Origin: a virus
IMG/VR virus record: IMGVR_UViG_3300024317_000148
Coordinates: 1-50,114 of that record
DNA length: 50,114 nt
Direction: 5' to 3' (one strand)
Numbering within the stretch: position 1 is the first letter of the stretch; each line of letters opens with the position of its first letter. The notes below the pieces were generated by a model. That model did not search any database and was not told where the DNA came from. It saw nothing but the letters and a program-made list of their open reading frames with translations. Shown piece by piece: positions 18,600 through 40,128 of this stretch. The translations under genes were made by a program, and so were the position numbers.

Positions 18600-19091
18600 A
18601 TGCACGGCGGCAGCTTCGTGAACCCCCAGCCGGCGATCCCCCAGGAGCTCGAACGCCGGCGGATCGTCCGCCTCGCGTTCTCCGCGGCGCACAGGGTGTT
18701 GGACTCGCCGCGCTGCGGCTTGATCCACGGCCACGACTTCGTCGTTTGGGCCCACTTGGTCCCCATCGAAGGGATCTCCGCGCGGGTAGAAGCCGACGCG
18801 GACTTTCGCCAGGACGCGGAGATCGTCCTGCGACGCGAGCTCAAGTCACACTTGCTGCTCCAGCAGGGCGACCCGCTGTTGAATCCGTTGGAGGAGGGCG
18901 CCTCGGCGCGCCAGGAGCACTGCGACCGCTTCCGGATCAAGGAGCTCGATTTCGCGCCGACGTTCGAGGGACTCGCGCGACACCTCTTCGGTCTGTTCGG
19001 CGCGCCCGCGCTGGCCGGCGGCTTCTACGTCGTCAAGGTCGCGGTCTTCAACGCCCTCGACGAGGGCGCCAGCTTCGGATTCGAGCCCTGA
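18600..19091 (+). CDS. QueD/PTPS-like 6-carboxytetrahydropterin synthase homologue
   Basis: The 163-residue protein has FSAAHRV with His31, then RCGLIHGHDF with C39, H43 and H45. That is the zinc histidine triad and catalytic cysteine arrangement of the PTPS/QueD family, with the usual 4-residue step from Cys to His. In the C-terminal strand the family normally has a pterin-binding Glu (V-x-V-x-E-T); here the sequence is VKVAVFN, so the residue may be changed. QueD makes carboxytetrahydropterin on the way to 7-deazaguanines. No QueE, QueC or ArcTGT-like gene is visible here. The ATG has an AGGAGGA ribosome site. Confidence 0.75.
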   Translation: MHGGSFVNPQPAIPQELERRRIVRLAFSAAHRVLDSPRCGLIHGHDFVVWAHLVPIEGISARVEADADFRQDAEIVLRRELKSHLLLQQGDPLLNPLEEGASARQEHCDRFRIKELDFAPTFEGLARHLFGLFGAPALAGGFYVVKVAVFNALDEGASFGFEP

Positions 19092-20415: not shown

Positions 20416-21768
20416 GTGGTACTGCTCGCCGGAGCCGCGCCCCGCTTCTGGAGCCAGGACGACCCGGTCCTCAGTCCAACTGGTGAGGTCGTTCGCGGCG
20501 GGATGCTCCCCCACCAGCGGCAGTTGTGGGCGCTCCCCAACTTCATCAAGGTACTCGTCGCCGGCTTCGGGGCCGGCAAGACGATCCTGCTCTGCAAGTG
20601 GGCGATCGCGAGCGGGCTGGAGAACGCGCCGGCGCCGATCGCGGTCGTGTCCCCGACGTTCACGGACGCGCGCCGCACGCTCATCCCGACGATGCGCGAG
20701 CTCCTGGCGGGGAAGCAGACGCTGCTCGGCCACGCGTTTCGCTGGCACTTCCACGAAACGCACCACGTTTTCACCGTCTGGTACCACGGGCGCGTCGCGC
20801 GCATCGAGGTCTACTCGGGCGAGGACCCCGACCGCCTTCGCGGCCCGAACCTAGCCGCGGTCGGGACCGACGAGCCCTTCATCCAGAAGGAGGCCGTCTT
20901 CACGCACACGATGGCGCGCATCCGCCATCCGGCGGCGCGCCGGCGCGAGATGGTCCTGACGGGGACGCCCGAGCAGCTCAACTGGGGCTACGAGCTGTGC
21001 GTTGGAGACCTCCGCGAGAAGAACGACGTGGGGGTGGTGCGCGCGACCTCGCGCGACAACCCGATCACGGTCGCGACCGGCTACGTCGACCGGCTTGAGA
21101 CGCTGTACGACGAGAAGACCGCCCAGGCGTACCTCGACGCGCGCTTCGTCAGCCTCAGCAAGGGCCAGGTCTACTACAACTTCGATCCGATGGAGAACGA
21201 GGTCGAGCTCGCGCGGCCCGAGGACGCCGAGCTCGGGCTCGGGATGGACTTCAACGTCAACCCGATGGCGATGAGCGTGTTCTGGAAGCGCCGCGGCCAC
21301 ATCCACTTCATGCGCGAGTACGAGCTTCCGAACGCCGACACCGAGCTCGCCTGCTCGATCGCGCGCGAGCACTGGTGGGACGCGGGCCTGCGCGACGTCT
21401 ACCCGGACGCGACCGGCCACCGGCGCCAGACCTCCGCGCCGGGCGGCAAGAGCGACTTCCACTACATCCGCGCGGCTGGCTTCAAGATCCACACGGCGCT
21501 CTCCGCGGAGGGGAAGCCCGTCAACCCCGAGCGCAAGGATCGCTTCAACGCCGTCAACGGGCGCTTCAAGCCCCGCGGTTCTGGAGTTCAACTCACGATC
21601 TCGCCCCAGTGCAAGAAGCTGAAGAAGTATCTTCTGGGGTACGCGCACGAGACCGCGCACAAACAGGAGTCAATGAGCCACCTTCTCGACGCGTTCAGCT
21701 ACCCGGTCGCGTTCCTCTTCCCGGTCTATCGGGAGGTCGTCAACGTCCGGCGCCTCCAGGGGGCTTGA
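20416..21768 (+). CDS. Terminase large subunit
   Basis: The 450-residue protein is the packaging motor. The ATPase half has Walker A GFGAGKTI (50-57), an acidic Walker B in VGTDEPF, and coupling motif LTGTPEQLN. The nuclease half opens with GMDFNVNPMAM, the first RNase H-fold aspartate, followed by later acidic positions near SHLLDAFSYP. GTG 20416 has a poor ribosome site and lies 7 bases after the upstream stop. Headful or cos cutting cannot be told from sequence alone. Confidence 0.93.
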   Translation: MVLLAGAAPRFWSQDDPVLSPTGEVVRGGMLPHQRQLWALPNFIKVLVAGFGAGKTILLCKWAIASGLENAPAPIAVVSPTFTDARRTLIPTMRELLAGKQTLLGHAFRWHFHETHHVFTVWYHGRVARIEVYSGEDPDRLRGPNLAAVGTDEPFIQKEAVFTHTMARIRHPAARRREMVLTGTPEQLNWGYELCVGDLREKNDVGVVRATSRDNPITVATGYVDRLETLYDEKTAQAYLDARFVSLSKGQVYYNFDPMENEVELARPEDAELGLGMDFNVNPMAMSVFWKRRGHIHFMREYELPNADTELACSIAREHWWDAGLRDVYPDATGHRRQTSAPGGKSDFHYIRAAGFKIHTALSAEGKPVNPERKDRFNAVNGRFKPRGSGVQLTISPQCKKLKKYLLGYAHETAHKQESMSHLLDAFSYPVAFLFPVYREVVNVRRLQGA

Positions 21769-25105: not shown

Positions 25106-27052
25106 ATGGTCCAGCAGATCCAGCTCCAGGATCCACCGCAGCACGAGTACGTCCTGCAGGCGACGTTCCCCAGCCGCTCCGCCGGTCCGTGGAGCGTCGA
25201 GGGCTTCCCGACGGACTGGCGGCTCGTCGTTCCTCCGACGCGCGCCGGCGGCCCGAGCGTCTTCGAGGTCAACGCGCTCGTCCCCGGCGGCCGCGGCGAC
25301 TTCAGCCTCGGGCACGCCGTCGTTCCCGGCCCCGGCGTCGAGCTCGCGCGCCTCGCGTTCGACCCGGCGACGCTCAAGCTCGCGGTCGACGGCTCGACGT
25401 TCACGCTCACGAGTCGCGCGTGGTTGAAGCGACTCCACCGCCGCGGCCGCGTCGAGGTCACGGCCGCCTTCCACCGCGACCTCGGCGTCTACGGCGACGC
25501 TGAGTATTGGATCGACGCGCGCGCCGGCTCGCGCGAGCTCGACGTGACGCTCCTGTGGCACCGGGCGATGCCCGGGCCTGACTTCCGAGTCTCCTCGGCG
25601 CGGCTCGTCGTTCCGGACGGCGCCAGCTGCGTTGAGCTGATTCCGGATCCGGGGCAGGATGGTCCGATCCTCGCCCCGGGTCTCTTCCCGCAGCAGTTCG
25701 CGCGGGTGTTCCGCTTCGCGATCGTCGCCGCGGGCGCGACGCCCGAGCGCGCCCACGTGGGAACGGGCGATTGGACCGCGGAGGGCTTCCTGCCCGCTGG
25801 CCTCCCGATCCCGAAGGTGGACGCGGTCGACTACGCGCCCGCGCTCGCCGAGGCGCGCTGGCGCCTCGCGAACCTCCTGCCGAGCCCAGAGTGGGGCGCA
25901 ACGCCCGTCTCGCCGCTGTGGCCGGCGAAGGGCGTGCGCTCGGGCAGCGAGGCCGGGGGCGAGGACCGCTACCCACTCGACGGCTCGCGCTGGGCCGCCT
26001 CGCGCGGCGACCCAGACGCGCACGAGTGGTACCTGATCGAGCAGCTGCGGAACCTGAGCCGCGCGCGCATCCGCCTCGGGCCGAACGGAGACCCGCTTCA
26101 GCTCCCGGCGAGCGGGGGCGAGTGGGACTTCTGGGACGGCTTCCTCGCCGGGCACGATGCGCCGTGGAACTGGAGCTCGTTCGCGACGCTCTCCGGCCCC
26201 GACGACCCGCGCGCCTTCGCCGACTACGAGGTCGGCGGGATGATGCGGCGGTTGAATGAGAACTGGGCGCTCGTCTGGCTCGCGAACGACCCGCTGGCGC
26301 GCCTCCTCACGCTGGAGGGCGCGACGCGCGCGCGGCTCACGTTCTACGAGGGGAGCGGGCGCGCGCACCGCCTCGACGTCCCCGCGGTCTCGGGGCTCGG
26401 CTCGGACTACGGGATCTGGCAGGCGAGCGCGGCCCTCGCGATCGCGCCCGCGCGCGCCCTGGGCGACCGCCAGTACGAGACGTGGGCCGCGACCTACCTC
26501 GCCCACCTCCGCGCGGCGCAGATGCCCTCCGGCTGTTTCTACGCGCACGAGGGCGGCTATCCGGCCGACCGCGATCCGTTCTTCAACCGCTACCTGCTCC
26601 AGGGCGGGGCCGAGTTCGCCTATTCAATCCTCGCGGCCTACGAGCTCGGGGACGAGGCGCTCGCGCGCTCGGCGATGCGCGGCGTCGAGGCGCTCGCCTC
26701 GGACGACGACGACCCGGGGTTCTACTACTTCACCGCGACGGGCCTCGCGGGGAGCTCGACGCGCTACCTCCGGCAGCACCCCGCCGGCGCCTCGGACGCC
26801 CAGGCTTGGCCCGCCGCGCTCTACTCGGGGATGGGGGTCCCGGGCGGGGGCGGGTACTACACCGCCTGGGACATGGGGTACGTGGTCGCGCTGGCTCTCG
26901 CGACGGGCGCCCCGGAGGGAGTTGAACTATCCCGGCGGTTCGCCCCCGGGGGCCTCCCGGAGGTCCAGGGATGGGGACTTGAAGCCCCGAGCGCCCAGAC
27001 GGGCGCGCCGTTCGAGCAGTGGGGAGTCATGCGGGGTATTCTTCAACGGTAG
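25106..27052 (+). CDS. Large enzyme-like protein, paralogous to the secreted protein at 36767
   Basis: The 648-residue protein is unrecognised. Its N-terminal 230 residues look like beta-sandwich modules and its C-terminal half like alternating long helices with conserved aromatic and acidic residues, an (alpha/alpha) barrel-type layout seen in polysaccharide lyases and hydrolases; that is inference. Around residue 271 PLWPAKGV, later LIEQLRNLSR and NDPLARLLTLEGATRARLTF align clearly with the protein encoded at 36767. No signal peptide is seen, so it could be a virion or cytoplasmic protein, whereas the paralogue is secreted. The sulfatase gene starts 24 bases after its stop, suggesting a joint role on a sulfated carbohydrate. 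Confidence 0.7.
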   Translation: MVQQIQLQDPPQHEYVLQATFPSRSAGPWSVEGFPTDWRLVVPPTRAGGPSVFEVNALVPGGRGDFSLGHAVVPGPGVELARLAFDPATLKLAVDGSTFTLTSRAWLKRLHRRGRVEVTAAFHRDLGVYGDAEYWIDARAGSRELDVTLLWHRAMPGPDFRVSSARLVVPDGASCVELIPDPGQDGPILAPGLFPQQFARVFRFAIVAAGATPERAHVGTGDWTAEGFLPAGLPIPKVDAVDYAPALAEARWRLANLLPSPEWGATPVSPLWPAKGVRSGSEAGGEDRYPLDGSRWAASRGDPDAHEWYLIEQLRNLSRARIRLGPNGDPLQLPASGGEWDFWDGFLAGHDAPWNWSSFATLSGPDDPRAFADYEVGGMMRRLNENWALVWLANDPLARLLTLEGATRARLTFYEGSGRAHRLDVPAVSGLGSDYGIWQASAALAIAPARALGDRQYETWAATYLAHLRAAQMPSGCFYAHEGGYPADRDPFFNRYLLQGGAEFAYSILAAYELGDEALARSAMRGVEALASDDDDPGFYYFTATGLAGSSTRYLRQHPAGASDAQAWPAALYSGMGVPGGGGYYTAWDMGYVVALALATGAPEGVELSRRFAPGGLPEVQGWGLEAPSAQTGAPFEQWGVMRGILQR

Positions 27053-27076: not shown

Positions 27077-28543
27077 ATGAAGATCCTCGCCTCAACGCTC
27101 TTCTTGCTCCTCGTCCTCGCTCTGGCCGTGACCTGCGCGCTCGCGCAGTCCGACGCGACCGCGCCCGATCCGCAGCTCACGGTGCCGATGCCGGTCTGGT
27201 GGCGGGCGACGCGGACCGCCGTCAAGCAGAAGGGCGCGCGGCGCATCAGCATCGCGAACGGGCCGGCGACGCCGCGCGACTGCCTCTTGGTGGTCCTGGA
27301 TGACGGCGGACAGGAGGACGTCGACGAGCTCCACGCCGAGGGCTGGACGCCCACGCTCGACCAGATCGGCGCCCACGGCATCGTGTTCGCTCGCGCGCGG
27401 AGCAACCCGGTGTGCTCCCCGGCGCGGCGCTCGCTGTGCCTCGGAACCTGGTACTTCAACGAGAGCGGGATCGGCTGCACCGCGATGCCCGGCGCGGAGC
27501 CGCCGCTCGCGGCGGTGACGGTCGCGGACCTCGCGCTGAGCGCCGGCGTCCTTCCGCTCCTCGACGGGAAGTGGCACCTGGGTGGCGATCCGAACGGCGG
27601 AGCGTTCGAGGGCGCGCCGAGCGCCCAGGGCTTCATCGGCACGCCGTCGACCTGGACGCCGGGCAACATGAACTCGCCGGCCGGCGGCGAGGGCTCGTGC
27701 GGCGGCGCGGGGTACTCGAATTGGTACCGCGTCGTCGTCGGACCAAGCCCGAGCTCAGGCTTGGTGCAGACGTTCGAGCCGCTGGAGATCGAGCAGGCGC
27801 TGACGTCCTGGTGGCTCGCGAACGCGGGCACGCCGCGCTTCGCCGTGTGGTCGATGTCGATGCCGCACGCGCCGTTCATCACGGTCCCGCCGAGCTGTCG
27901 CCCGCCCGGCTACTCGCCGGTCACCGTGACCGATCGCGATCGCTACAAGATGATGCTGGCGAGCTGCGACTACCAGCTCGGGCGCTTCCTCGCGGCCGCT
28001 GGCATCGACCTCGCCGATCCCTTGAGCCCGCTCGTGATCGTCGTGGGCGACAACGGGACGCCGCAGCAGGTTGCTCCGGACCCGACGCGCGCGAAGACGA
28101 CGACCTACGAGCGCGGGATCCGCGTGCCGTTCGTGATGGGCGGGGCGGGGCTGGCGTCGCAGGTCTCGAATCGGCTCGTCCACCTCGCGGACGTGCTGCC
28201 GACGCTGGCCGACTACTGGAACGTGCCCGCGCCCGCGAGCATCGACGGGGTCAGCGTCTTCGGGCCTCCGCGCCCGCCTGTTCTGTGCGGCCAGGGCGGC
28301 GGCTGGTTCGGCGGCGACCCGACGGTGCCGGGCGACTGGTGTGCGGTCGGCGCGTTCCAGGGCGGCGCCTGCTACAAGCTCCGTCGCCACGGGCTCCCCA
28401 ACACCGCGCCGGTCGAGGAGTTCTACGACCTCAACGCCGATCCGAACGAGCTCGCGCCGCTCGCGCCCGCCATCCTCACGGGCGGCCCCGCGCTCGCGGC
28501 GCACTACCTCCACAACCGCTTGTTGAAGGCCGGGGTTCCCTAG
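27077..28543 (+). CDS. Secreted sulfatase (formylglycine-type)
   Basis: The 488-residue protein starts with a Sec signal (MKILASTLFLLLVLALAVTC, cleavage likely after ALA). Its S1-sulfatase motifs are intact: D75-D76 in the metal-binding VVLDDGG, C113-S-P-A-R117, the CxPxR sequence in which Cys becomes formylglycine, K165-W-H in DGKWHLG, D325-N326 in VVGDNG, and YERGIRVPF. It should remove sulfate esters from a carbohydrate outside the cytoplasm, provided the host supplies a formylglycine-generating enzyme. There is no clear ribosome site before ATG 27077. A phage-borne secreted sulfatase is unusual; the flanking unknown enzyme and the host's sulfated surface or diet are the natural context. 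Confidence 0.9.
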   Translation: MKILASTLFLLLVLALAVTCALAQSDATAPDPQLTVPMPVWWRATRTAVKQKGARRISIANGPATPRDCLLVVLDDGGQEDVDELHAEGWTPTLDQIGAHGIVFARARSNPVCSPARRSLCLGTWYFNESGIGCTAMPGAEPPLAAVTVADLALSAGVLPLLDGKWHLGGDPNGGAFEGAPSAQGFIGTPSTWTPGNMNSPAGGEGSCGGAGYSNWYRVVVGPSPSSGLVQTFEPLEIEQALTSWWLANAGTPRFAVWSMSMPHAPFITVPPSCRPPGYSPVTVTDRDRYKMMLASCDYQLGRFLAAAGIDLADPLSPLVIVVGDNGTPQQVAPDPTRAKTTTYERGIRVPFVMGGAGLASQVSNRLVHLADVLPTLADYWNVPAPASIDGVSVFGPPRPPVLCGQGGGWFGGDPTVPGDWCAVGAFQGGACYKLRRHGLPNTAPVEEFYDLNADPNELAPLAPAILTGGPALAAHYLHNRLLKAGVP

Positions 28544-28545
28544 CT

Positions 28546-28719
28546 ATGAGCGTTGCAATGGAGCTCGGTGCGTATGACGAGCAGTGGCTCGAATCGCTGA
28601 GACCGCCGTCGGAGGTTGTGTGAGAGTGGGACTACATCTCGTGGGTCCACGAGCAAGCATTCGAGCATCCAGAGGAAGCCTTTCCAGACGCTGCGCGGAG
28701 AGAAGACGATGAGTGCTGA
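28546..28719 (+). pseudogene. Interrupted small ORF with in-frame TGA
   Basis: A frame from ATG 28546 encodes 25 residues to TGA 28621-28623, then continues in the same frame for 31 more residues (EWDYISWVHEQAFEHPEEAF...) to TGA 28717-28719. Both halves have coherent, protein-like composition and unusually low GC. It reads as one 57-codon gene broken by a nonsense codon, or as a recoding site. TGA is an ordinary stop elsewhere in the window, so genetic-code change is unlikely. Confidence 0.4.
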
Positions 28720-29203
28720 CTGCTGCGACGATCCCCGCCACCCCCACGACTCCGGGCTCGCGTACTGGGCGCTGCTCGCGGCGCTCGCGCTGCTGCTGGC
28801 GTTCGCCGTGATCGCCTCGGGCTGCACGCAGGTCGATCGCCGCACGACGCTCGCAGGCTCTTCGCCCCCGCTCCCCGACGAGCTTCCCGGCGCCTACGCG
28901 ATCGACTGGAACCCGACGGCGGGCGGCCCGCGCACGATCGCGAGCGGTGGGCTCGACGTCGACGTCGCGACGTTCGACCACTTCCCCTGCTTCTCGCTCG
29001 CGGGACAGACCGCGGTTGGGGGCACCTACGACTACGACCTCGCCGGCCACTTCCACTGCGAGGCGAAGACGCTCGGCGGCGATACCAAGGTCACGGTCGA
29101 CGGCGCGTTCAGCTCGGACTTCTCGATGAGCGGGACGTACGAGGTGCGCTTCCTCGGGAGCCTGTGCGAGGCGGGCGTCATCCAGATGCGGAGGAGCAAT
29201 TGA
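28709..29203 (+). CDS. Membrane-anchored or lipoprotein-like hypothetical protein
   Basis: The 164-residue protein starts at ATG 28709 with GGAGAG upstream. After a charged, cysteine-containing start comes a hydrophobic helix (LAYWALLAALALLLAFAVIASGC) ending in Cys39. ASGC loosely resembles a lipobox but lacks the usual leucine at -3, so a plain membrane anchor is equally likely. The rest is beta-rich (GLDVDVATFDHFPCFSLAGQ, TKVTVDGAFSSDFSMSGTYEV) and outward facing. It follows the sulfatase, suggesting an envelope role during infection. Confidence 0.65.
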   Translation: MSADCCDDPRHPHDSGLAYWALLAALALLLAFAVIASGCTQVDRRTTLAGSSPPLPDELPGAYAIDWNPTAGGPRTIASGGLDVDVATFDHFPCFSLAGQTAVGGTYDYDLAGHFHCEAKTLGGDTKVTVDGAFSSDFSMSGTYEVRFLGSLCEAGVIQMRRSN

Positions 29204-30217: not shown

Positions 30218-31855
30218 ATGCCGGTCGACCAGAAGCACCCGCTGTTCGACGCGGCCGCGCCGGCCTGGGACCGGATGCGCGCGGCGATCGCGGGCGAGGA
30301 CGCGATCAAGGCCGCGGGCAAGCGCTTCCTGCCCGAGCTCGACGGCCAGGAGCCGGACGAATACGCGGCCTACCTCCAGCGCGCGACGTTCTACGGCGCG
30401 ACCGGGCGCACCAAGGTCGCGCTCGTCGGCGCGTTATGGCGCAAGGCGCCGCGCGTCGAGTTCCCCGCGCCCGACGTCCTGAAGCGCATCGGCAAGGCCG
30501 GCCGCTCCTTCGACGATCTCGCCAAGGAGGCGAGCGACCAGGACGTCTCGATCGGCCGCGTCGGGATGCTCGTCGACGCGCCCGAGGTCGACAACGGCCG
30601 CCCGTTCATCACGCTCTACTGCGGCGAGCGGATCATCAACTGGCGCTTCGGCGAGAACAAGGCCGGCGAGGAGGTCCCGGTCGAGATTGTGCTGAGCGAG
30701 GAGGTTGAGGAGCGCGATCCCAAGGACCAGTTCAAGGTCGCGTACGTCGAGCGCTTCCGCGTGCTGCGCCTCGGCTTCGCGGAGGCGCCGGTCGGCTCGG
30801 ACGGGAAGGTCAACGCGCCGATCCAGGAGTACATCGACAGCCGCGTGCGCGAGGCCGACCTCACGGAGCCCTACTACTACCAGGAGCTGTGGGCCAAGGT
30901 CCAGGGCGCGCCCGGCGAGAAGCCGCAGCTCGTCCTCGATCGCATCATCATCCCGTGGATGAACGGCGGGCGCCTCCTGCGGGGGATCCCGTTCGAGTGC
31001 GTCAACGCGGAGGGCCTAGGACTGGAGCCGCAGCAGGCGCCGCTCGACGCGCTCTCGGCCTCGAACCTGAGCCACTGGCGGAACTCGGCCGACCTCGAAC
31101 ACGGCGCGCACTACACCGCGCTGCCTACGGCCTGCGTCTCGGGCGTCAACATGGACGAGGAGCCCGAGGGCGCCGCCTACGACGGTCCGGTGACGAAGGC
31201 GACGGCCGCGGTCCAGCGGCCCAAGGGCGGGCTCAAGATCGGCTCGGTGCGCGCCTGGGTCTTCCCGAACCCGGCGGCGCAGGCCTGGTTCCTGGAGTTC
31301 ACCGGGGCCGGGCTCGGCGCGATCCGCCAGCTGATGGAGGACAAGAAGAAGGAGATGGCGGCGCTGGGCGCGCGCCTCCTCGAAGAGCCGGCGACGAAGG
31401 GGGTCGAGGCGTCCGAGACGGTGCGGCTCCGCCAGGTGGGCGAGCGCTCGGTCCTCGCGAACGTCTCCAACACTCTCTCCCAGGGACTGACGCGGATCCT
31501 CCAACACGTCGCGACCTGGCTCAACCTCTCGGGCAAGGTCTCGGTCACGCTCAACGACGACTTCGACACGAGCGGGATGGACCCGGGCCTCCTCGCCTCG
31601 ATGATCCTAGAGGTCCAGGGCGGGCTGATGAGCTGGCAGACGCTCTACTTCAATTGCGAGCGCAAGTCCATGTACCCGCCGGGCTGGACGATGGAGAAGG
31701 AGGCGGCCGCGATCGTGGCCGGGCCGCCGCTCGGCGTCGAGGCGCTCGCGCCCTCGCAGGAGGCCGCGCGGACCGAGGCGGAGCTCGCGACGGCCAAGGC
31801 CGGGCTCGCGAACCCCGAGCCGGCGCCGGCCGCCGCGGACAAGGCGGCGGCTTGA
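30218..31855 (+). CDS. Portal protein (DUF4055 type)
   Basis: The 545-residue protein has the N-terminal pattern of DUF4055 portals: HPLFDAAAPAWDRMRAAIAGEDAIK, RFLPELDGQEPDEYAAYLQRATFYGATGRT, a GALWRKAP strand and GRVGMLVDAP. It should form the 12-subunit ring at the capsid vertex that TerL docks to. The last 60 residues are Ala/Glu rich and probably flexible. ATG 30218 is 3 bases after the previous stop. Confidence 0.85.
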   Translation: MPVDQKHPLFDAAAPAWDRMRAAIAGEDAIKAAGKRFLPELDGQEPDEYAAYLQRATFYGATGRTKVALVGALWRKAPRVEFPAPDVLKRIGKAGRSFDDLAKEASDQDVSIGRVGMLVDAPEVDNGRPFITLYCGERIINWRFGENKAGEEVPVEIVLSEEVEERDPKDQFKVAYVERFRVLRLGFAEAPVGSDGKVNAPIQEYIDSRVREADLTEPYYYQELWAKVQGAPGEKPQLVLDRIIIPWMNGGRLLRGIPFECVNAEGLGLEPQQAPLDALSASNLSHWRNSADLEHGAHYTALPTACVSGVNMDEEPEGAAYDGPVTKATAAVQRPKGGLKIGSVRAWVFPNPAAQAWFLEFTGAGLGAIRQLMEDKKKEMAALGARLLEEPATKGVEASETVRLRQVGERSVLANVSNTLSQGLTRILQHVATWLNLSGKVSVTLNDDFDTSGMDPGLLASMILEVQGGLMSWQTLYFNCERKSMYPPGWTMEKEAAAIVAGPPLGVEALAPSQEAARTEAELATAKAGLANPEPAPAAADKAAA

Positions 31856-38949: not shown

Positions 38950-40128
38950 GTGGTAAACGACCTCTCAAAGGTCATTCCGAAGATCCTCGCGCTGGGGCAG
39001 CGCGTTCTTCGCGCGAACGCGGTCACGCCCCGTCTCGTCAACCGTCGATACGAGACCGAGGCCGGGCGCCAGGGGTCGACGATCGACGTGACGATCCCGG
39101 GGCTGGTCCCGGCGCAGGACGTCGTGCCTGGGATGGGCGCGCCGACCTCGCAGTCCATCGCGCCGACCACGGTGCCGATCGCGCTCTCGAAGTGGAAGGA
39201 AGCTCCCTTCGAGCTCACGGACAAGGAGCAGAACGAGATCCTGGACGGCGTGCTCCCGCTCGAAGCCGAGGCCGCGGTCAAGTCGCTCTGCGACGCCGTC
39301 GACCAGGACCTGCTCGCTCAGGCGTACCAGTCCACCTGGCAGTTCGTCGGTGACGCCAACGCCTACGTTCCGTTCGACCCGACGCTCAACAGCGGTCTCG
39401 GCTCTACGAAGACCGCGACGGACCTCAACAAGGTGCTCCACAAGGGGCTGACGCCGACCGGCGACCGCCACTGCGTGGTGACGGCCGACGTCGAGGCGAA
39501 CGCGCTCCAGATCCGCGCCTTCCAGGACCAGAGCTGGTCCGGCGACATCGAGGCGATCATCAAGGCCCGCCTGAACGACCGCCTCGGGTTCCGCTGGTGG
39601 ATGAACCAGAACCTGACCGCGGTCGCGCACACGGCCGGGACGCTGACGGGCGCGACCGGTACGGGCACCTCGGGTTCGACCACGGTGGCGGTCTCGACCG
39701 GCACCGCGGCTGTGCTGAACCCCGGCGATCTCATCAAGTTCGCCAACCACACGCAGATCTATGTCTGCCGCTCGGCGATCAACCTCGGCGCGACCGCCGG
39801 CCCGATCTCCCTGACGATCGCGCCCGCGCTCGTCACGGGCGTCACCGCGCAGGCGATCTCGCACCCGACGAACTTCGCGAACGGCAACGTGTATTACAAC
39901 GGCATCGCCTTCTCGCGCAACGCGATCGCGCTCGTGTCGCGTCCGTTCCAGCCGATCCCCGACGGGCTCGGCTCGGTCTCGGGCTCGATCACGGACGAGA
40001 TCACGGGTCTCACGCTCCGCGTCGAGCTGACGCGTGGCAACAAGACCCAGCGCTGGTCGTGGGACGTGTTGTGGGGCGCGGCCGTGCTCCGTCCGGAGAA
40101 CGTCGCGCGCCTCGTCGCGAGCATCTGA
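38950..40128 (+). CDS. Major capsid protein, P22 coat-like
   Basis: The 392-residue protein starts ILALGQRVLRANAVTPRLVNRRYE, then STIDVTIPG and VPIALSKWKEAPFELTDKEQ, matching P22 coat-like major capsid proteins. A central beta domain with a repeated glycine-threonine stretch (GATGTGTSGSTTVAVSTG) fits the inserted I-domain-like module, and ITGLTLRVELTRGNKTQRWSWDVLWG the C-terminal part. GTG 38950 has GGAGG 7 bases upstream. Flanking scaffold, promoter and terminator support the call. Confidence 0.85.
   Translation: MVNDLSKVIPKILALGQRVLRANAVTPRLVNRRYETEAGRQGSTIDVTIPGLVPAQDVVPGMGAPTSQSIAPTTVPIALSKWKEAPFELTDKEQNEILDGVLPLEAEAAVKSLCDAVDQDLLAQAYQSTWQFVGDANAYVPFDPTLNSGLGSTKTATDLNKVLHKGLTPTGDRHCVVTADVEANALQIRAFQDQSWSGDIEAIIKARLNDRLGFRWWMNQNLTAVAHTAGTLTGATGTGTSGSTTVAVSTGTAAVLNPGDLIKFANHTQIYVCRSAINLGATAGPISLTIAPALVTGVTAQAISHPTNFANGNVYYNGIAFSRNAIALVSRPFQPIPDGLGSVSGSITDEITGLTLRVELTRGNKTQRWSWDVLWGAAVLRPENVARLVASI

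Follow-up and report, generated by a model that had tools for sequence, protein, structure and literature searches.

What is a sulfatase gene doing in a tailed phage, and where did the phage obtain it? The questions are raised by an open reading frame at 27077..28543 (+ strand) of a viral contig of 50,114 bases from IMG/VR (IMGVR_UViG_3300024317_000148), which was analysed over its whole length and is referred to here as the window. The ORF starts with ATG and encodes a protein of 488 aa. It matches PF00884 with 72.6 bits (E 4.5e-20; cut-off 25) over profile positions 3-298 of 301. In the PDB, the first sequence match is arylsulfatase A (E ~1e-11), and carrageenan sulfatases are also among the best. 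An AlphaFold2 model built with 13 family members (pTM 0.81) has the alkaline-phosphatase-superfamily fold; Foldseek matches it to solved sulfatases (E down to 4e-21), including S1_19 sulfatases, a Pedobacter sulfatase and ARSA. The nearest folds are PsS1_19B (an S1_19 kappa-carrageenan sulfatase, 6prm/6psm), the Pedobacter enzyme (7stt) and human arylsulfatase A (1auk). The window protein shares their fold, formylglycine motif and metal- and sulfate-binding residues, but it is phage-encoded, has an eroded LTGR element and is only ~20% identical to them, so the substrate cannot be read from the solved enzymes. Nor can it be named from NCBIfam, because no equivalog scores above its cut-off: choline-sulfatase, PRK13759 arylsulfatase and PehA reach 26-39 bits against cut-offs of 433-900.

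The active site is complete. All 11 catalytic and core positions are intact (D75, D76, C113, P115, R117, K165, H167, H264, D325, N326 and K340). The formylglycine motif, C113-S-P-A-R117, lies at 27413..27427 (+); its Cys and Arg are invariant in 13 aligned viral copies and in 22/22 rows checked. The metal ligands and the sulfate-binding Lys and His residues (D75, D76, D325, N326, K165, H167, H264, K340) are likewise kept in all rows checked. The CxPxR core recognised by the formylglycine-generating enzyme (FGE) is intact, and the auxiliary LTGR part is non-canonical (CSPARRSLCLGT), as it is in many viral copies and some chromosomal relatives. Position-wise GC of the ORF is 0.68/0.55/0.94, which is coding-type and resembles the neighbouring phage genes. 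By profile, predicted fold and catalytic residues, the gene thus appears to encode a working formylglycine-type (S1) sulfatase, predicted to hydrolyse sulfate esters.

The enzyme is apparently exported. The N-terminus, MKILASTLFLLLVLALAVTCALA followed by Q, resembles a Sec signal on inspection, with hydrophobic residues at 4-23 and an ALA-Q type end, and the probable signal peptide is encoded at 27077..27148 (+). In the AlphaFold2 model residues 2-28 form a helix, followed by a low-confidence linker at 25-58. A sequence-only reading of the window had proposed a phage-encoded sulfatase with the core motifs behind a Sec signal. The family match, the active site and the tailed-phage surroundings described below bear out the first part, and inspection of the N-terminus agrees with the second.

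The record is a genuine tailed-phage genome. It encodes thymidylate synthase, DNA polymerase, a clamp and clamp loader, a UvsX-like recombinase, SbcCD and QueD, as well as terminase, portal, head morphogenesis, scaffold, major head and minor tail proteins, and almost all genes are on the plus strand. The sulfatase is located between hallmark genes on the one contig. The terminase large subunit of the packaging module (TerL; 20416..21768, +; phrog_2, E 3.2e-32) is on one side; on the other are the portal gene, with which the head module begins (30218..31855, +; phrog_145, E 1.3e-99), and the major head protein gene (MCP; 38950..40128, +; phrog_283, E 1.4e-59). TerL (~44%) and MCP (~36%) have distant counterparts in Vibrio phage MAR10 and related phages. 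Genomes of the MAR10 type are ~76 kb, and the record may therefore be a fragment. Searches for promoters and terminators gave nothing exceeding chance. The QueD-like protein, at 18600-19091, suggests 7-deazaguanine chemistry in the phage.

Upstream, separated from the sulfatase by 24 nt, is a gene for a 648-aa protein (25106..27052, +) without family assignment: it has no match in Pfam, PHROG, NCBIfam or the PDB, and its predicted structure is unusable (pLDDT 31) and gives no fold match. Relatives of this protein (36-38% identity) were found in only 2 of 154 genomes, from the same Planctomycetota order as the sulfatase relatives described below. Downstream is a gene for a small putative lipoprotein (28616..29203, +), with a hydrophobic stretch ending in IASGC and no family match. 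The 3.4 kb holding the 648-aa gene and the sulfatase (25.1-28.5 kb) exceeds the rest of the record in GC (0.72-0.74 versus ~0.69) and deviates most in tetranucleotide use, although some of the compared segments overlap it. This composition fits an acquired cassette, and the two genes possibly arrived as one. The same peak in GC and tetranucleotide deviation is what an assembly chimera or passenger bacterial DNA might produce. That explanation is very improbable: phage packaging and head genes lie on both sides on one strand, GC3 resembles that of the neighbours, and the same type of gene occurs at comparable sites in many independent contigs. We rejected it on the flanking hallmarks and on these other contigs; the sequence-only reading had itself raised the possibility of a chimera, and no sign of one was seen.

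Other viral contigs also carry relatives of the sulfatase. Peptide patterns built on single proteins recovered no viral relative of either the sulfatase or its 648-aa neighbour, so motif-based patterns were needed. Two motif scans and one profile scan of IMG/VR yielded 16 further contigs (L103-L118) carrying relatives with ~27-56% identity to the window protein; more distant sulfatases also turned up. A lone acquisition by one phage is thereby ruled out. The catalytic Cys, whose loss in related copies would have spoken against the sequence-only reading, is kept in all relatives, including 17/17 viral sequences. Of the 11 positions, only P115 varies among the viral copies, being replaced by Q in L112 and by A in L116. 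A dN/dS of ~0.22 between two close viral copies indicates purifying selection and suggests a working gene; the value for the window and L103 (~0.6) is uninformative, as third positions are very GC-rich and probably saturated. About 14 of the 17 viral copies have a hydrophobic N-terminus by eye, two of them with a lipobox (L105 and L115), and three (L103, L112 and L117) seem to have no signal peptide.

The position of the gene also recurs, and many of the further contigs have phage hallmark genes close to it. TerL adjoins the sulfatase in L103, L105, L107 and L108 (called by phrog_2 in L103 and L108, and by similarity to those in L105 and L107), and L118 also carries TerL. In L106 the sulfatase is followed by portal and scaffold genes, an arrangement shared with the window, and a portal gene is also present in L113 and L114. 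The terminases of L103, L105, L107, L108, L115 and L118 belong together in a single family, and the terminase of the window lies outside it. Because there are two distinct terminase families, different phage types evidently keep the sulfatase near the packaging region. Often the next gene after the sulfatase encodes a member of a family that matches nothing in PHROG or Pfam (L104:8987-11017, L105:9317-10639, L109:9083-10621, L110:9195-10625, L116:9231-12806 and L117:9145-10833, and also L115). Some members of this downstream family have tandem C-terminal repeats.

The sulfatase family itself is known, and viral sulfatases have already been counted as auxiliary metabolic genes (AMGs) in metagenome surveys. 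Data from Kyphosus guts include thirteen sulfatases in potential prophage regions (PMC11077953), and a review mentions viral sulfatases in deep groundwater (PMC10029852). Like the window gene, these are annotated as sulfatases on viral or prophage contigs; the relevant passages of the two sources give tallies without family, active-site, context or donor analysis. Among structures in BFVD, the significant matches included no phage protein, only giant eukaryotic viruses (Yasminevirus, Tetraselmis virus 1 and Satyrvirus). These proteins share the sulfatase fold and its viral setting with the window protein, but they belong to viruses of eukaryotes and are 12-16% identical to it. No credible sulfatase of an isolated phage was found among 50,697 phage records, which gave weak matches only: unannotated gut scaffolds, contigs of 'Acinetobacter phage MD-2021a', Salmonella records and UNVERIFIED Campylobacter phage records. 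One of the last, 'Campylobacter phage A11a' (L239, MG065691.1), was rejected as likely contamination; the record is UNVERIFIED and the stretch that includes its sulfatase resembles ordinary bacterial chromosomal genes. The remark in the sequence-only reading that no well-characterised tailed phage is known to carry a sulfatase holds, these matches being weak or doubtful. In the literature searched, no paper contained the exact phrases for a sulfatase of phages or viruses. A phage sulfatase lineage repeatedly exchanged with one Planctomycetota order and recurring near packaging genes seems to be undescribed in the literature searched.

Planctomycetota are rich in sulfatases. In a wide genome scan the best cellular matches had at most 33% identity among the matches listed, versus up to 56% for the viral relatives. 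The top match was a Planctomycetota MAG, isolate SJ480, which was followed into its phylum and then into one order, sampled as 154 genomes including SJ480. Family matches at E<=1e-60 are present in 105 of the 154. The closest cellular relatives are a tandem pair of sulfatases (L216; G438:C408:5932-8428), 50-51% identical to the window protein. Their contig also encodes NuoD and NuoL/M/N-type subunits of Complex I, and the pair is therefore considered chromosomal. Other cellular members adjoin genes for ATP synthase, AccA, class II tRNA synthetase, TamB or Omp85. The chromosomal sulfatases (the L216 pair, L202-L204 and L208) fall in the same clade as the window protein, with ~29-51% identity over the aligned part and the same catalytic set where checked; they differ in being sometimes tandem, and in lying beside housekeeping genes, outside a packaging region. 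A further chromosomal sulfatase (L209; G353:C89, 11650-12719), with a TamB gene on its contig, aligns in two frames and is a probable frameshift or pseudogene.

A tree of 46 viral and cellular sulfatases places the window protein in one clade with L103, L104 and L105 (100/100), and the sister of this clade is the G438 pair (100/99). An all-viral clade in a first tree, with limited cellular sampling, was broken on wider sampling by Planctomycetota chromosomal copies inside it. The 46-sequence tree requires, at its well-supported branches, no fewer than five switches between virus and cell, a count that does not itself give direction. Host-to-phage transfer is the natural reading because the chromosomal repertoire is large. 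The phylogenetic comparison with bacterial sulfatases, advised at the outset for locating a donor, thus identifies Planctomycetota as the donor group; the direction is an inference. The pattern suggests that phages repeatedly borrow the enzyme from one Planctomycetota order.

The host of the phage likely belongs to the same order. The window terminase had no match in 392 Planctomycetota genomes, in a search run without a positive control, and no provirus or spacer link between the window and any host was found; the host is for this reason assigned by gene relatedness, that of the sulfatase and of its 648-aa neighbour. In one genome of the order, TerL, portal-like and head genes of the L107/L108/L118 type occur on two contigs, which could represent proviruses or phage DNA binned with the genome. 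FGE (PF03781) was found in 0/20 viral records, some of which are fragments, and at E<=1e-20 in 61/61 sampled genomes of the presumed host order. The phage would therefore rely on its host for activation of the enzyme, which fits the earlier proposal of maturation by a host FGE. A published study reports FGE genes in phages of Pseudoalteromonas (PMC10232697).

We hold with moderate confidence that the window encodes a catalytically competent, exported sulfatase which came to the phage lineage from Planctomycetota, and very likely from its own hosts. The gene would be expressed late, with the surrounding packaging and head genes. Host FGE would convert Cys113 to formylglycine, after which the protein would leave by the Sec route, and beyond the inner membrane it could remove ester-linked sulfate from glycans at the host surface or in its surroundings.

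Several purposes can be considered for such an enzyme; the sequence-only reading had suggested passage through sulfated capsule or algal polysaccharide, or a change in host carbohydrate use. One is that it travels on the virion, as a depolymerase-type enzyme aiding entry through a sulfated capsule or matrix. The conserved neighbourhood of packaging and head genes would suit this, as would the downstream protein of several phages, which is outside known families and might be a virion component, and the three viral copies without an obvious signal peptide. A virion-borne role in entry is nevertheless improbable because of the export signal: a Sec-type N-terminus, as in the window and ~14 of 17 copies, would send the protein away from the cytoplasm, the site of virion assembly. 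The sulfatase also has no fused tail or spike domain, and a review of virion-associated carbohydrate enzymes makes no mention of sulfatases (PMC5380687). The LPS deacetylases and capsule depolymerases of phages resemble the window enzyme in altering surface glycans, in the case of the deacetylases without chain cleavage, but they are virion tailspikes (PMC5380687), whereas the window enzyme appears to be exported and would act on sulfate groups.

The purpose ranked most likely, although short of an even chance, is removal of sulfate groups to which new virions would otherwise stay attached or bind again, whether this acts in release or by altering a receptor. Ranked nearly as likely, and still tentative, is that the desulfated sugar or sulfate feeds the infected host. 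In its full form the latter makes the gene an AMG which boosts host use of sulfated polysaccharide or the sulfate supply and has no effect on virion movement. This is a real possibility that falls some way below probable. Its relatives are part of a large sulfatase repertoire in the same Planctomycetota order, and the two sources above list viral sulfatases among AMGs (PMC11077953; PMC10029852). However, hosts rich in their own sulfatases would gain little from an extra copy unless it brought a new specificity. The gene is also in the packaging and head region, away from the metabolism genes at 1-5 kb, and has no adjacent polysaccharide-use partner of known family.

Removal of progeny-binding sulfate can be extended to the whole lineage, in the rather doubtful proposal that Planctomycetota phages repeatedly capture one host sulfatase lineage as an exported, late, glycan-altering enzyme which frees progeny or blocks re-adsorption. 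The phage sulfatase would then play, by desulfation, the part of viral receptor-destroying enzymes, a role for which the literature searched gave no description in any phage. To our knowledge, few Planctomycetota phages have been characterised, and the sulfatase lineage provides a genetic marker by which phages of this order could be recognised. The findings also suggest that the phage enzyme becomes active only through a protein-modifying enzyme of its host, FGE. The repeated movement of the lineage between Planctomycetota and phages, together with its place in the packaging and head region of several phage types, makes sulfated glycans a candidate barrier or receptor during phage infection.
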